From Panorpa germanica (lineage: Eukaryota; Arthropoda; Insecta; Mecoptera; Panorpidae): a stretch of 64,000 nucleotides of DNA. Below the pieces are notes generated by a model, which had not been told where the DNA came from, did not search any database, and was given only the letters and a program-made list of their open reading frames with translations. The DNA lies in NCBI GenBank assembly GCA_963678705.1, contig OY783212.1, forward strand, positions 4,526,001 to 4,590,000, written 5' to 3'. Both the position numbers and the translations under genes were made by a program. The stretch's first letter is position 1. Each line of letters starts with the position of its first letter. Of the stretch, positions 42,115 through 58,527 are shown one piece after another.

Positions 42115-42123
42115 ACTTTTTAT
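42115..42123 (+). repeat. 9-bp target site duplication, left copy
   Basis: ACTTTTTAT immediately before the left terminus of the Mutator-type element; identical to 47391-47399. Confidence 0.9.
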
Positions 42124-42861
42124 ACGTCAGTGAAGTTAGCGAACCGGACTTAGCAGTCTGGTCCCCACTAGTGGTGTAAAAAACTTAGCAGTCCGCTAAC
42201 AGTGTAATCGCTATTATAGAGTTCATTAGTAAAGTAATCCGTTATTTGTATTAGTATTACTTTGAATACAGAATGAAATAATTAAAATTAAACATTTTCA
42301 ATAATAAATTAGCACTAAGAAAAAATAGACTTCCATACAAAAAAAACACTTATTTTAGTGAATGTTCCGATGTAATTTCTCATCATATCTCGATAACAAA
42401 AATTGGCATATGTATAAAGTAAGATATGCACATTTATAATCTGCTTAAAAAACAAGACCATACTATATAAGATTCGGAGGTACGAGTCTCTGAAGTTGGT
42501 GTTTCATTCAGATATGCAGGTAAATGGAGTTAAGAAACACCTTGAAAAAACAAATTTGCCAGCACTCCACGATGACAATATTTGGTACGTGTATAAAGAA
42601 AGATATATACATTTATAATCAACTTTCGAACCCATAAGAATATATATAAGATTCGGAACTACGAGTCTCTGAAGTTGGTGTTTTATTCAGATATGCAGGT
42701 AAATGGAGTTAAGAAACACCTTGGGGACAAACAAATTTGCCAGCACTCCACGATGACAATATTTGGTACGTGTATAAAGAAAGATATATACATTTATAAT
42801 CAACTTTCGAACCCATAAGAATATATATAAGATTCGGAACTACGAGTCTCTGAAGTTGGTG
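42124..42861 (+). repeat. left terminal inverted repeat of the Mutator-type element
   Basis: Reverse complement of 46655-47390. The outer ~375 bp are single-copy; the inner part holds ~180-bp direct units aligned on AGTTGGTG ending at 42501, 42680 and 42861. A partial third unit continues to about 42965, beyond the inverted repeat, and encodes the transposase C-terminus. Confidence 0.92.
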
Positions 42862-42863
42862 TT

Positions 42864-45449
42864 TTATTCAGATATGCAGGTAAATGGAGTTAAGAAACAC
42901 CTTGAAAAAACAAATTTGCCAGCACTCCACGATGACAATATTTGGTACGTGTATAAAGAAAGATTTTCTACACGGTTAATATTAAACTTAGATACATTTT
43001 TTTCCGAAACGAAATACGTTTTACATCTTTTAGGGGTTTGACGTCGCGCCCATTTTTCTTCGGGTAATTCTATATTTGATTTGATTCTTTTTCTAAATAA
43101 TGATACTTTATTGGTTGGAAATTCTACTTGTTTAAATAATTTTTTTAGGCATTCATGGAATCGCATTACAAACCTATCTAACCTTAGTGGTCCCTTATTA
43201 CCTAAAAAGTTGTGTTTTACTAATCTAAACCAACTTTCTACCAATGCATTACTATCACGTCTGATATTAAACCCACCTAATAATATCCCAGTCCATAACG
43301 GGGCATATGGAAGTTTATCTTCAACTAAATAATCTATATACTTCGGAATATAGTACTCATTGGTGTCTATATTAATTACTTTTTCTAATTTTATTTCGCT
43401 TATTACAGAAACTATAGACTTAAAATGTTTGTAAAAAGGGGACTTATATTTTATTGGACCATTTTTATGTTCGTCATTACGAGCAAGCAAATCGGCATTA
43501 TCATTAATTACTTGGGTTTCTGAGTTTATTAATATATTATCTTTAGAATCTAAATTATCAATCTTAAGTTTCAATTTATTAAAAGCATTTACACATGCGA
43601 CTGTTCTGTATTTGCTCATGCATAGTACAGTACAATCTTTAACTAGTTCTTCTAATTCTTTTAAATTTTTAGAATTTATCATTAAACCAAATAGTTGTCC
43701 CAGAAAAAATTTTAACGATTTATTTGTAGTAATTTTTTTTAAATTATTTAAACCCGCTTTCATCGTATGGTTGCAACAATTATGGACAACAGTAAAATTT
43801 AAATCTTTTAATAAAGTGGGATTATATTTTATTAAAATATCAAATGTCTTATCTAAATATTCTGTCATAGTACATTTATTAAACGCATCTAAATATGCAT
43901 TCATTAGAGCAAAACTAAAATCAGTAGTGATTTTGTGAATTAAAGGTTTTCGATGATGGGGATTAACTGATTTTACTATATTTAAAAATTGTTGTATTCT
44001 AATTGAAATATTTCCCCCCGTGTGGGAACAAGTTATAAATTGAAATAACGGTACGGTGCATCCCTCATATTGAATAACTGTAGAATACAAATAAAATTGT
44101 TTTGAAAAGTCACTGGATCTTGTGACTAGAGAACCTGTTGCATCCCCATATGCATAAACTGGACCGGGGTGATTGAGCAACAATCTAATTTGTTGCTCTG
44201 TGAAAATATGAACACATGTTTCGTAAAGTATATCAATGTAAATGCCTTTTGGCCAAGTTTTACATTGTTCGCGTTTATTCCAATACAATTCTGATTCTTT
44301 ACTTAATTTATGTATCGCAATTAAAGTGTCTTTATCTAAATCTAAATCAGACTTGGCTTCACTACTGATTTTACGAATTGTACCTAATTCAATGTTGCCT
44401 GTATAATTACCTGCTCGTAATGATGAACGGGGCGTTTTAAATAACGCATCTAATTGTACGTTTTTGGGGTTATCCTGAACTAAAAGTTTCTTAAAACCAT
44501 TGCGGACTGTTCCTCGAATTTGCCGTCTATGGAATTCATTCGCATTATGGTAAAAGGCACCTTTTTGATTAACATGAACTGACACGTTGTTGTCGTTTTT
44601 AGCATTTTTATAAACTCTAAAGTAATATACAGCGCAGCCCGAAAATTTACATATTGCCTTTGCATAAAAGTAAATATTTGAAGAGTTACGATTAATTTTA
44701 TTGTACTTAAATGAGAGAACACATTTATTATTAAAAAAATCAAACTTGCTTGCAAATATATTTGTCCATGCCTTAGCCAAACGATTAGGGTTACTATTGT
44801 TATGTAGTTCTTGCCATATATTTTGCGGTATAAGTAATATAAAATCGGATTTAGGTGTCGGGGGTTTGGAAAAACAGACAGTATTTTTAATAATAAACAA
44901 TGATTTACCTTTTGGACTGGTACTTGTACTATTTATAAAATCACTTTCAACTTGATGGACAGTTTCTTGAATTTGTTGAATGGGGAATACAGATAAATTA
45001 TTGGAATCTATTTCATTATTATTTAAAGTCGGGTTAGATTTAATTAAACATGGACTATTTTTATTAAAAATTATAGGATCGGGGGAATGCTCTTTATTAT
45101 ACGATTGCGTTGCAGGAACATAACTTTGCTGATCATCGATTAAAATGTCATTCACTGTAGAAGTATTTCTATCAGAGTTCATAATGCGCTTGATTTCAGA
45201 TATTACATTTTCTTTTTTATTAAGATTGGCTAAATAAAATATTCTCGATGTTTTTTTATTACGCATTTTAGTAGAATCCCTTTTTCTAAAAAAAGCAGCA
45301 ATTTTATAACAAACATCTGAATATACACTCTTAATAGACTCGCACGCCTGTAAAGGATTTTCCGGATAAAGGATTGTTAACGCCTGAGCTATACTTAATG
45401 GATTGATCTGAGGAATTTTCTTTTCCATTTCGTTGTTAATAAATTTCAT
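42864..45449 (-). CDS. DDE transposase of Mutator superfamily (861 aa)
   Basis: Single open frame with no internal stop. Residues ~260-305 carry a possible zinc-binding DNA-recognition module (C267, C272, H292, H301) as in WRKY/FLYWCH-type N-terminal modules of MULEs. The catalytic core is inferred as D436 (VYAYGDATGSLV), D510 (HKITTDFSFALMNAYLDAFN), CxxH at C558-H561 (VVHNCCNHTMKAG) and E738 (SNALVESWFRLVKHNF). A CxxH between the second Asp and the Glu is typical of Mutator, hAT and related superfamilies; the 9-bp target duplication favours Mutator. The stop lies in the left repeat, so the last ~33 residues come from subrepeat sequence. The start at 45449 is the first ATG; a second Met follows at residue 8. 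The family could be Phantom/NOF, but no search was possible. Confidence 0.8.
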   Translation of the reverse strand: MKFINNEMEKKIPQINPLSIAQALTILYPENPLQACESIKSVYSDVCYKIAAFFRKRDSTKMRNKKTSRIFYLANLNKKENVISEIKRIMNSDRNTSTVNDILIDDQQSYVPATQSYNKEHSPDPIIFNKNSPCLIKSNPTLNNNEIDSNNLSVFPIQQIQETVHQVESDFINSTSTSPKGKSLFIIKNTVCFSKPPTPKSDFILLIPQNIWQELHNNSNPNRLAKAWTNIFASKFDFFNNKCVLSFKYNKINRNSSNIYFYAKAICKFSGCAVYYFRVYKNAKNDNNVSVHVNQKGAFYHNANEFHRRQIRGTVRNGFKKLLVQDNPKNVQLDALFKTPRSSLRAGNYTGNIELGTIRKISSEAKSDLDLDKDTLIAIHKLSKESELYWNKREQCKTWPKGIYIDILYETCVHIFTEQQIRLLLNHPGPVYAYGDATGSLVTRSSDFSKQFYLYSTVIQYEGCTVPLFQFITCSHTGGNISIRIQQFLNIVKSVNPHHRKPLIHKITTDFSFALMNAYLDAFNKCTMTEYLDKTFDILIKYNPTLLKDLNFTVVHNCCNHTMKAGLNNLKKITTNKSLKFFLGQLFGLMINSKNLKELEELVKDCTVLCMSKYRTVACVNAFNKLKLKIDNLDSKDNILINSETQVINDNADLLARNDEHKNGPIKYKSPFYKHFKSIVSVISEIKLEKVINIDTNEYYIPKYIDYLVEDKLPYAPLWTGILLGGFNIRRDSNALVESWFRLVKHNFLGNKGPLRLDRFVMRFHECLKKLFKQVEFPTNKVSLFRKRIKSNIELPEEKWARRQTPKRCKTYFVSEKNVSKFNINRVENLSLYTYQILSSWSAGKFVFSRCFLTPFTCISE

Positions 45450-46654
45450 TCGTTATCAAATAAATAGATAAATTATAATGTTTATTAAAGAAATTAGAAG
45501 AAAACGATTATTACGGTATGCTGTCAATTTAAAATAAAATGGGAATGGTATATATGCACATATATAATAATGGTTAGTGTAATAAAATAGAGGTACTTAC
45601 AGTTTGATGATCGATTTTTATCAAGATATTTCCTATCTACTTTGACAAATCACACAATCACACACAATCACAATTTAATTTATTTAATAATCTTGAAGCT
45701 ATGATGTGATCCGTTGCAGCGTTGAAAAGGAAAAGAATTATTTTAAAAATATTATTTTCTTAAGTACACTTTTTAGGGTAATAAAATTACAAAACTTACA
45801 TTATACAAATACAGATATTATGTACAAGTAAATCCGAAGTTTTATTGCCTAGTGTCATAACGCAAATTTGTAGACAGGATATTTTAACATCCTATTTAAA
45901 ATTTTAACGCCCTTTAAAGTATATTTCTATTGAACATTTAATTCTCTATATTTTACAATGTGAAAGTTTAGCGCACACTGGATTCACACGATTCGGTCTT
46001 TTATAATGTAATAGCAATTTAGTTATTTTAAAAATATATTATTTACAAACAAGGATACTTATAATAAGACATAAAAATTTATTAGGTATTCTGAAACATT
46101 ACTATTTATATGGATCCAGCTATTTGGTGCGATACGGAAAACATGTGTTTAACTTACCGCAAGCCATGAAAAAGGTTGATAGAGCTGTCAGTGGCAGGAC
46201 TGCTCGGCAGCTGGAGGCCAGCATTTGACACATCAAAGCGAGCGATGCAAATATAAATAAAATAATTCGTAGTTTCATTTAAAATTTTATTTCTTTTTTT
46301 AAATAGAAATATTTCACTGCAATATAATTATAAACAGGTGTTAAATAATAAATAAAATTAAAAAGTTGTTTTTATCTTTGCAATAACTCAGTAGAACCAT
46401 TCTTCCCAAATATATAGAATACGTTGTATTGTATTGCTACCTGATAAGACCAAAGAATCGATTAGGTTTAATAAACAAAAATATCAAGCTATTGTGTATA
46501 ATATAACTGAAGTTGAAACTATAGAAGCAATAAATTAAGGTTAGACTGTGTATCTATTCAATAAACTGTGTGAAATAATTACCTATGTTTCAACAGAAAC
46601 ATCACTTTTGAGAAGAGTTCTAGACCTTCTATCACCTAAGTTACAAAATGCCAA
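45450..46654. other. internal non-coding segment of the Mutator-type element
   Basis: 1.2 kb between the transposase start and the right inverted repeat. No frame with recognisable similarity; probably holds the transposase promoter/leader and possibly an upstream non-coding exon. Confidence 0.5.
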
Positions 46655-47390
46655 CACCAACTTCAGAGACTCGTAGTTCCGAATCTTATATATATTCTTA
46701 TGGGTTTGAAAGTAGATTATTAATGTATATATCTTTCTTTATACACGTACCAAATATTGTCATCGTTGAGTGCTGGCAAATTTGTTTTTTCAAGGTGTTT
46801 CTTAACTCCATTTACCTGCATATCTGAATAAAACACCAACTTCAGAGACTCGTAGTTCCGAATCTTATATATATTCTTATGGGTTTGAAAGTAGATTATT
46901 AATGTATATATCTTTCTTTATACACGTACCAAATATTGTCATCGTGGAGTGCTGGCAAATTTGTTTTTTCAAGGTGTTTCTTAACTCCATTTACCTGCAT
47001 ATCTGAATGAAACACCAACTTCAGAGACTCGTACCTCCGAATCTTATATAGTATGGTCTTGTTTTTTAAGCAGATTATAAATGTGCATATCTTACTTTAT
47101 ACATATGCCAATTTTTGTTATCGAGATATGATGAGAAATTACATCGGAACATTCACTAAAATAAGTGTTTTTTTTGTATGGAAGTCTATTTTTTCTTAGT
47201 GCTAATTTATTATTGAAAATGTTTAATTTTAATTATTTCATTCTGTATTCAAAGTAATACTAATACAAATAACGGATTACTTTACTAATGAACTCTATAA
47301 TAGCGATTACACTGTTAGCGGACTGCTAAGCTTTTTACACCACTAGTGGGGACCAGACTGCTAAGTCCGGTTCGCTAACTTCACTGACGT
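46655..47390 (-). repeat. right terminal inverted repeat of the Mutator-type element
   Basis: Mirror of the left repeat. Subrepeat starts CACCAACTTCAGAG at 46655, 46834 and 47013 (period 179 bp) mirror the left-arm positions within two bases. The outer end is CGCTAACTTCACTGACGT at 47390. Confidence 0.92.
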
Positions 47391-47399
47391 ACTTTTTAT
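47391..47399 (+). repeat. 9-bp target site duplication, right copy
   Basis: ACTTTTTAT, identical to 42115-42123. Confidence 0.9.
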
Positions 47400-57048: not shown

Positions 57049-58527
57049 TTAGTGTAATACTTTTGCATTCGGATTGCTATATGATATAAGATTTTCAGAA
57101 GTAGGTTCCTGCGAATCATCTGAATCCAATTCGGAAGAACTAGAACTTGATGAATCCGTATCAGTGGTAGAACTTGAGTCTGTATCTTCACTAGAACTTG
57201 AATCACTAGCCTTCTCCATTTTATTAAGTTCCATACCCGCTATTCCGGTTATAAGTCCAGTTTCCAAATTTGACATATGCTCTTCATGGACGAGTTTTGC
57301 TGCATCCTCAATTTCAACTAAGTCAAATCCTAGTTGCATTTTCAAAATTTTTATTTCACTTAACTCATTGGCTAATGATTCTATTTCACTATCCTTTAGT
57401 TTCTGTATGTATATTAAATAGTCATTTATATACAGCTGATTTAAAATGTAACGCGCTGCTTGGCTCACTTTAAATAAGTTATAAATCTCAATAAGACATT
57501 TCAACAGGTAAATCTTTCCAAGACGTAGTGCAGTTACTACGTCTTCCTTAATTTTCAAAGCCAATTCAAAATTTCTGTAAAGTGGATAAATTAATGCACG
57601 CCGCATTGAGCTAAGAATACAATCTTCTAACGAGTTAAAAGTCTCAAACCAACTTAATGTAGATGATAATCTGTTAATGGTCCAGCTGGATTCACAACCT
57701 AGATCTTCCGCAGTAGTTCGATATTCGAACATTAAGCCATACAATAAATCAACAAGCCCGATTAAAATACTCTGCTTTTCTTTATAACTTAACAAATACT
57801 CTTTATTTGGTAAATCTTTTAAGACATCAAGTTCATTTTCTTTAAGAACAATAAGGTCTTTACTTTTTAACAATTTTGTCCAAGAAGCTTCATAATTCAA
57901 GAATGGAATTATGTTATCAGGTTCATATAAATCCGCTAAATAATGATCTGAAGAAAATTTATTGTTTTCAAATGAAAATCTCATACGTGTCTTTTCAATT
58001 CCATTAATTGAACTTGGCGTTTTAAGCTCAAACACTTCAAGAAAATTATCGCAGTTGAATTCCATAGTGTGCTTATTTCCAAAACCGTATCCATGTTTAT
58101 TGCTCAAATCTAATTTTGTTGTTGTATTATCAACTTCCTCTGAATCTGTCACAGCTTCTGCTGTTTTATTATCATCTGCATCTGTTGAACCTATTACTTC
58201 AATTCTTGTCGTAAAGGACGCTGGCTCTGATTTAGTGGGAATTAGTAAACTTGTTATCATATCTAGATTTTCGAAATATTCTCCCTGATTCTGTTTTTCT
58301 AGTTTAAAAAAATATTCTTGTGTATCGCAAGTAAATGTTCCAGAACATCTTTCAGAGTCAATTAATTTTCCCGGTAAACGCAGCCTTAAAAAATAAGGCG
58401 TTGCATAGAATATAAAATCGTAGCTTTCAATATGGCATTCACTCTCCTGAATATTTGAGAATGGAGCATGCACAGTCACTAAGACAAAATCATCATCTTG
58501 TTTCAATTGAAATCTTGGAGTTAACAT
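57049..58527 (-). CDS. SHQ1: SHQ1, H/ACA snoRNP assembly chaperone
   Basis: One uninterrupted frame of 492 aa. Shq1 holds newly made dyskerin/Cbf5 (NAP57) as an RNA mimic until it joins H/ACA RNPs. The N-terminal CS/p23-like domain is clear: MLTPRFQLKQDDDFVLVTVH, then YDFIFYATPYFLRLRLPGKL and GEYFENLDMITSLLIPTKSE. The C-terminal SHQ1 domain (about 200-410) includes LVDLLYGLMFEYRTTAEDLG, SSWTINRLSSTLSWFETFNS and SMRRALIYPLYRNFELA. A Ser/Glu/Asp tail (about 440-480) follows. It is intronless whereas every other host gene here is split; the frame is clean, it has no poly-A tail or flanking repeats, so it looks like a working gene. It is divergent from Dpy-30 with 701 bp between start codons. Confidence 0.94.
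   Translation of the reverse strand: MLTPRFQLKQDDDFVLVTVHAPFSNIQESECHIESYDFIFYATPYFLRLRLPGKLIDSERCSGTFTCDTQEYFFKLEKQNQGEYFENLDMITSLLIPTKSEPASFTTRIEVIGSTDADDNKTAEAVTDSEEVDNTTTKLDLSNKHGYGFGNKHTMEFNCDNFLEVFELKTPSSINGIEKTRMRFSFENNKFSSDHYLADLYEPDNIIPFLNYEASWTKLLKSKDLIVLKENELDVLKDLPNKEYLLSYKEKQSILIGLVDLLYGLMFEYRTTAEDLGCESSWTINRLSSTLSWFETFNSLEDCILSSMRRALIYPLYRNFELALKIKEDVVTALRLGKIYLLKCLIEIYNLFKVSQAARYILNQLYINDYLIYIQKLKDSEIESLANELSEIKILKMQLGFDLVEIEDAAKLVHEEHMSNLETGLITGIAGMELNKMEKASDSSSSEDTDSSSTTDTDSSSSSSSELDSDDSQEPTSENLISYSNPNAKVLH

Follow-up and report, generated by a model that had tools for sequence, protein, structure and literature searches.

The insertion and its ends

The window, by which we mean the whole 64,000-nucleotide stretch of Panorpa germanica DNA analysed here, harbours an inserted element at positions 42124-47390, the boundaries of which are set by its ends and the 9-bp repeats flanking them. 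A perfect 9-bp duplication, ACTTTTTAT, adjoins both ends (42115-42123 and 47391-47399) and is seen directly outside each, as the initial annotation had described; between the two copies the element starts with ACGTCAGTGAAG and finishes with CTTCACTGACGT, and both termini open with ACGTCAGTGAAGTTAGC. The inverted termini, first put at about 737 bp, give an alignment of 740 columns that contains one gap and is 98.4% identical. The inner portions of both are tandem subrepeats of 179-181 bp (about 180 bp), amounting to about 3 + 3 units, with the left array extending to 42964 and the right array starting at 46653, so that long, subrepeat-bearing, foldback-like ends are present on both sides. A minus-strand frame of 861 codons occupies 42864-45449 and is stop-free to its end. 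The features are as follows.

42115-42123, no strand: target-site duplication, left copy ACTTTTTAT (from the sequence)
42124-42964, plus: left terminal inverted repeat, 841 bp, starting with ACGTCAGTGAAGTTAGC (sequence and alignment)
42464-42964, plus: left array, about 2.8 subrepeats, TRF period 181 bp (copies 179 and 181 bp apart)
42864-45449, minus: 861-codon frame; residues 1-829 are transposase-like, the remaining 32 are read from the terminal repeat
42864-42964, minus: frame portion inside the left terminal repeat, codons 830-861 and the stop, standing where relatives enter an Ulp1-type domain
43236-43238, minus: codon E738, third catalytic candidate (coordinate derived from the frame)
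43767-43778, minus: CxxH motif, codons C558-H561 (coordinate derived from the frame)
43920-43922, minus: codon D510, second catalytic candidate (coordinate derived from the frame)
44142-44144, minus: codon D436, first catalytic candidate (coordinate derived from the frame)
45450-46652, no strand: inner region upstream of the frame; the repeat-array copy on C4 keeps 191 bp of it (46344-46534) at 98.4%
46653-47103, minus: right array, about 2.5 subrepeats, period 179 bp
46653-47390, minus: right terminal inverted repeat, 738 bp; its 740-column alignment with the left one shows 98.4% identity
47391-47399, no strand: target-site duplication, right copy ACTTTTTAT (from the sequence)

No further copy of the element was found elsewhere inside the window at E up to 1e-3. 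Near the insertion lies an SHQ1-like host gene (window 57049-58527, minus strand; Pfam SHQ1, E 6.9e-59), a eukaryotic neighbour.

Nine-base-pair footprints and relatives in the host genome

The host assembly surveyed comprises 464 Mb in 249 contigs, and the first 377 bp of the element give at least 126 DNA matches in it (best 40 of 156 candidates scored). The survey for near-identical copies that had been recommended as a check found them on C148, C4 and C2; each is 98-99% identical to the window element over these 377 bp and is flanked by a different perfect 9-bp duplication of its own (AAATTCAGT, ATATTTATA and GTCATATTT, respectively). All three are almost entirely subrepeat, with 22, 25 and 24 unit matches, and no transposase-frame match was found inside them. 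The less similar copies on C21 and C13 show no duplication, and at the C8 and C142 end pairs the flanks are inverted, hence a duplication is unscorable; the eight end pairs read most closely thus comprise four with a duplication (the window, C148, C4 and C2), two without and two unscorable.

The terminal pattern ACGTCRSTGAAGTTAGC occurs at 231 exact sites in the genome, against none for the reversed pattern. From the first 100 of these sites, 20 convergent neighbouring end pairs at most 12.1 kb apart were drawn, longer pairs and the already-scored C2 and C4 copies being left out. An exact 9-bp duplication flanks 15 of the 20; the remaining five consist of one 9-bp duplication with one mismatch, one exact 8-bp duplication, one 9-bp duplication with two mismatches and two pairs with none, the flanks of these two being alike. 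When ends from different pairs were matched as a control, 0 of 380 combinations gave a duplication at up to one mismatch. Because the three near-identical copies and 15 of the 20 pairs are duplicated, against none of the cross-pairs, chance is excluded for the window footprint. Nine-base-pair duplications are a family trait; the duplication size by itself names no clade.

Several of the related loci are rearranged or truncated. In a sibling on C8, 83% identical, the inverted ends measure about 5.4 kb, match each other at 97.8% and contain units of 258 bp and 179 bp. The DNA flanking it is also inverted, over at least 3.4 kb and with about 98-99% identity, and this transposase-Ulp1 sibling sits at the centre of the inverted flank duplication (C8:956401-979500; L062, L050, L048, L039, L049, L051, L064), which is either a real rearrangement or an assembly fold-back. 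At C142:227051-255360 (L054, L055, L060, L061), two inward-facing ends lie 20 kb apart, and their flanks are inverted copies of each other over about 530 bp (92% identity). Two copies 42 kb apart on C6 (L099-L102, C6:23572243-23618923) share their flanks and lack a target duplication, which suggests that a rearranged copy was segmentally duplicated. A more distant family, at C8:3.73M and on C147, encodes a protein 43-50% identical to that of the window, and the tip GTC(A/G)CTGAAGTTAGC is common to both families.

The subrepeats of the window element and of the C8 sibling have, by alignment, a common core around AGATTCGGA. The terminal motif is also echoed in each unit as GTCTCTGAAGTT, and these echoes were considered as repeated binding sites; this candidate was rejected, since resampled sequences did at least as well in 1250 of 3000 trials; the corresponding counts, again out of 3000, were 2548 for the C8 sibling and 205 for the more distant family.

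The reading frame and the missing protease domain

The uninterrupted 861-codon frame reported in the initial annotation is indeed open, and the residues D436, D510 and E738 and the CxxH at 558-561 are located as claimed, but its last 32 codons are terminal-repeat DNA, which had been overlooked. The 861-residue protein (P0001) has at least 56 matches in the host genome (best 53 of 299 candidates scored), from which 16 frames, several of them partial, were chosen for alignment. D436 is kept in all 11 rows that cover it; D510 is kept in 9 of 11, the other two frames ending at that position; and C558, H561 and E738 are each kept in 9 of 9 covering rows. In the window protein, the first and second aspartates are 74 residues apart (D1-D2) and the second aspartate and the glutamate 228 (D2-E). 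We infer that D436, D510 and E738 form an active site; the DDE-type RNase H fold proposed for the transposase core is unproven. P0001 has no Pfam match at E up to 10 and no solved-structure match at E up to 1, matches to NCBIfam all fall below the curated cut-offs, and a single-sequence AlphaFold2 model of residues 390-834 is uninformative (pLDDT 34.9).

Two stop-free long relatives, L010 (1111 codons, measured from stop to stop) and L019 (1170 codons), extend past the window-homologous part by about 270 residues, where Peptidase_C48 is matched (E 6e-10 for L010, 3.5e-8 for L019). Four more open C-terminal frames likewise lead into an Ulp1/SENP-type cysteine protease. Peptidase_C48 is matched in 6 of the 16 alignment members, and each of the six rows covering all four protease residues has His, Asp, Gln and Cys. 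Against solved structures, L019 finds SENP1 at 1.3e-9, and the relatives return SENP/Ulp1 entries and, at E 0.2, a single membrane protein. The genome contains 26 C48 matches, 12 of which sit 211-556 bp from a transposase match. By hand count, C48 is close by for 10 of the 17 transposase matches that reach residue 780; the seven others are the window, a copy at C5:7755400 in which the Ulp1 region is partial, and five matches that are themselves partial. That the protease is part of the transposon follows from the unit C5:14183135-14190963, which has terminal motifs at its limits and is flanked by an exact 9-bp duplication: between its ends lie a C48 match and a transposase match, the latter containing two stops.

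The Ulp1/C48 domain present in these relatives is absent from the window copy, and neither an Ulp1 remnant nor a separate Ulp1 exon was found in the window (best tblastn E 0.44). At the junction 42964/42965, the window reads GTGTAGAAAAT and then subrepeat sequence; its closest relative, the C5:7755400 copy, whose protein is 95% identical, reads GTGTAGAAAATGTAGCTCC at the same point and then Ulp1 region until its own frame ends. Since this relative goes on into Ulp1 where the window turns to subrepeat, codons 830-861 are terminal-repeat DNA. The 32-bp junction sequence has a single genome site at up to three mismatches, the window's own, and about 2 bp, judged by eye, are common to both junction parents, which suggests that the junction arose by end joining. 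The description of the element as full-length accordingly had to be given up: it lacks the Ulp1-type domain of its stop-free long relatives, and its final 32 codons are terminal repeat. As read from the DNA, the window copy derives by internal deletion from a transposase-Ulp1 element and is, taken alone, an ordinary deletion derivative.

The C5:7755400 copy itself (L044, C5:7750501-7759500) carries nested inverted repeats produced by rearrangement and is without the N-terminal part. Another unit, L083/L084 (C4:4611196-4621751), has terminal motifs, an exact 9-bp duplication and a transposase fragment, L024, the frame of which ends before the Ulp1 region; no C48 match is listed in this unit. 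Six further copies (L025-L030, on C3, C13, C1, C8, C3 and C12) have frames of 340-399 codons, that of L026 being split by one stop, which stop at the position of the second catalytic aspartate (...HKVTANMGK). Five of them are 99.4-99.7% identical to the sixth, L027, and by their sequences the group is a recently multiplied truncated derivative of another lineage.

Nei-Gojobori estimates, obtained with our own script, give dN/dS values for the window frame of 0.26 against L012 (629 codons) and 0.28 against L010 (817 codons); the window sequence supplied extended four codons beyond the homologous part, to codon 833, and aligned codons only were counted. For the core (residues 401-790) against L010 the value is 0.19, and for the Ulp1 part of L010 against L019 it is 0.36, a rough figure given a dS of 1.24. 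Whole-frame values lie within 0.13-0.49 in 14 of 15 comparisons, the exception being L010 against L015 (1.08). The lineage is under purifying selection. The values reflect the lineage before the deletion and are no measure of selection after it; the junction is seen once in the assembly, and post-deletion selection is therefore unmeasurable.

Classification, mechanism and significance

The assignment to Mutator-type elements made at the outset is borne out by 9-bp duplications across the family (the window, its three near-identical copies and 15 of the 20 wider pairs) and by the conserved D/D/CxxH/E pattern, in which the CxxH follows the second aspartate and which is non-diagnostic. In a profile search of the kind proposed to confirm it, Pfam MULE (PF10551) is matched neither by P0001 nor by any of the 16 family members at E up to 10, and an hhalign comparison with L052, the sole MULE protein found in the genome, was not significant, the profile being shallow (Neff 1.6). 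Judged by the features examined, the window element works like a Mutator-type, foldback-like element and is not Phantom. It is probably a cut-and-paste Mutator-type transposon with satellite-filled, foldback-like ends, of which the window copy would be a deletion derivative within a transposase-Ulp1 family.

Four other readings deserve weighing. The original one, a complete Mutator transposon of the Phantom/NOF lineage in which the 861-codon frame would be the whole transposase and which may be active now, is quite improbable. Its intact ends and duplication, open frame, conserved catalytic candidates and the purifying selection in its lineage would all fit, as would a D1-D2 spacing within the 60-76 residues of most arthropod MULE clades (PMC13359780), and the absence of any Pfam FLYWCH or SWIM match in family members decides nothing on Phantom, because the table of PMC6446971 gives its zinc finger as none, FLYWCH or SWIM and even lists aphid members with a minisatellite after the frame. 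Against this stand the roughly 270 further residues of the stop-free long relatives, the terminal-repeat origin of the final 32 codons and the lack of a MULE match, and the Phantom placement founders also on the D2-E spacing, which at 228 compares with about 120-135 in eight of twelve clades and with a maximum of 214, in one clade without reference members (PMC13359780). That the protease-free frame is a working shorter transposase, driving the repeat-array elements on C148, C4 and C2 in trans with Ulp1 dispensable, is possible, if on the unlikely side: those three copies are 98-99% identical to the window element over the first 377 bp and have perfect duplications, the C4 copy retains 191 bp of the inner region at 98.4%, the window frame is stop-free to its end, and, as far as candidates were scored, no further copy with ends matching at 95% or more contains a transposase match. 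The junction nevertheless occurs once in the assembly, so the form has not spread, and a longer source element may be absent from the assembly or have moved away.

Membership of another superfamily, whether one coupled to Ulp1 (Ginger, KDZ/Zisupton) or one bearing CxxH (hAT, P, Kolobok), is very improbable. Ulp1 is found in KDZ transposons; the word is absent from the one KDZ paper checked for it. Target duplications are 8 bp in hAT and P, and TTAA in Kolobok. The 9-bp duplications of 15 of the 20 pairs misfit hAT, P and Kolobok, and family members match nine Pfam families at E up to 10 with no integrase, KDZ or hAT model among them, whereas some Ginger1 transposases do have a C-terminal Ulp1 (PMC2836005) and CxxH or DxxH occurs in hAT, P and Kolobok too (PMC3706591). 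It is hardly credible that the junction or the repeat arrays are mis-assembled: repeat-rich ends are difficult to assemble, the junction is seen once and the C8 sibling lies inside an inverted duplication of at least 3.4 kb of flank, possibly an assembly fold-back, yet the two different flanks of the window element carry a perfect duplication and the frame is unbroken across the junction.

In its architecture, the element most closely resembles Rehavkus, compared here by description only. Rehavkus is described as a single-frame element that makes 9-bp duplications, contains a minisatellite and encodes a PHD finger (PMC6446971), and Rehavkus-1_TC of Tribolium has 164-bp repeats inside its inverted termini (PMC10218199); the window element likewise combines a 9-bp duplication and one frame with satellite-bearing inverted termini, here of 179-181-bp units. 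Unlike Rehavkus, its ends exceed the 26-400 bp of the PMC6446971 table, and no PHD finger was found in the family, with no Pfam PHD match and neither C4HC3 nor CxxC in the 16 aligned frames, several of them partial. The descriptions of Rehavkus covered (PMC6446971, PMC10218199) make no mention of Ulp1. The ends of FB/NOF elements in Drosophila are tandem subrepeats that vary in number between copies. Variable tandem-subrepeat termini characterize the present family as well, with about 3 + 3 units in the window element and 22, 25 and 24 in the C148, C4 and C2 copies. Tetris of Drosophila similarly has tandem-subrepeat ends with a unit number varying between copies, and its authors found no transposase-coding copy (PMC4079207). 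Tm1, a Mutator/Foldback element of root-knot nematodes, shares foldback-like composite ends, 9-bp duplications and many transposase-free copies, but the 496-aa Phantom-type protein of Tm1-A has FLYWCH and MULE domains (PMC3169594), neither of which was detected in the window family. Muta1 of Aedes aegypti is likewise an animal Mutator-like element, with 8- or 9-bp duplications; its transposition has been demonstrated in yeast (PMC5225508).

Ulp1 domains are reported in Mutator transposons of hydra, lancelet, Arabidopsis, maize, rice and melon (PMC2836005), so that the pairing of transposase and Ulp1 is not new in itself. Compared by description only, the family resembles these in having Ulp1 in a Mutator-type element, here in the relatives of the window copy; it differs in that the window copy is without Ulp1 and Pfam MULE is not detectable. 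The term ulp1 has zero occurrences in PMC6446971, PMC13359780, PMC5225508 and PMC3169594. No arthropod Mutator/Rehavkus-Ulp1 fusion was found among the titles and abstract openings listed, a scope that excludes Repbase Reports and leaves absence unproven.

The normal product of the family would be one protein, in which a DDE-type transposase core follows an N-terminal region and an Ulp1/SENP-type cysteine protease forms the C-terminal part. By analogy with Mutator biology, the transposase would bind the tips, its DDE core would cut both ends, and these would be joined to staggered target cuts 9 bp apart, giving rise to the 9-bp duplication. The number of subrepeats would change through unequal exchange or slippage, and end joining of the transposase-Ulp1 linker with a terminal subrepeat could have removed the protease and left a frame that stops inside the terminal repeat. 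Ulp1 might trim SUMO off the transposase or off a host repair factor; for Ulp1 in transposons, a link with SUMO or ubiquitin control of repair has been proposed (PMC2836005). With ends, duplication and catalytic candidates intact in a lineage under purifying selection, the window element is perhaps active, and the copy may yet yield a protein with catalytic activity, or a competitor of the complete protein.

A bolder proposal is that the family constitutes an undescribed Mutator-type branch, in which transposase and SUMO protease are one protein and the satellite-filled ends reach about 5 kb, and that the window copy has shed the protease and possibly drives the repeat-array elements; we hold it only tentatively and consider it rather unlikely. 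If it were true, transposases with and without Ulp1 would coexist in one genome. Ulp1-type proteases recur among transposons of different kinds, and any part they play in transposition is hypothetical (PMC2836005); protease-bearing transposases and a close relative without the domain would form a natural pair that makes the role of Ulp1 directly testable. The C8 sibling, if its locus is correctly assembled, adds very long satellite-bearing ends (about 5.4 kb) to a family with clean 9-bp footprints elsewhere, the longest transposon ends in an arthropod survey being 1193 bp (PMC13359780), and the family bears on how transposon ends seed satellite DNA.
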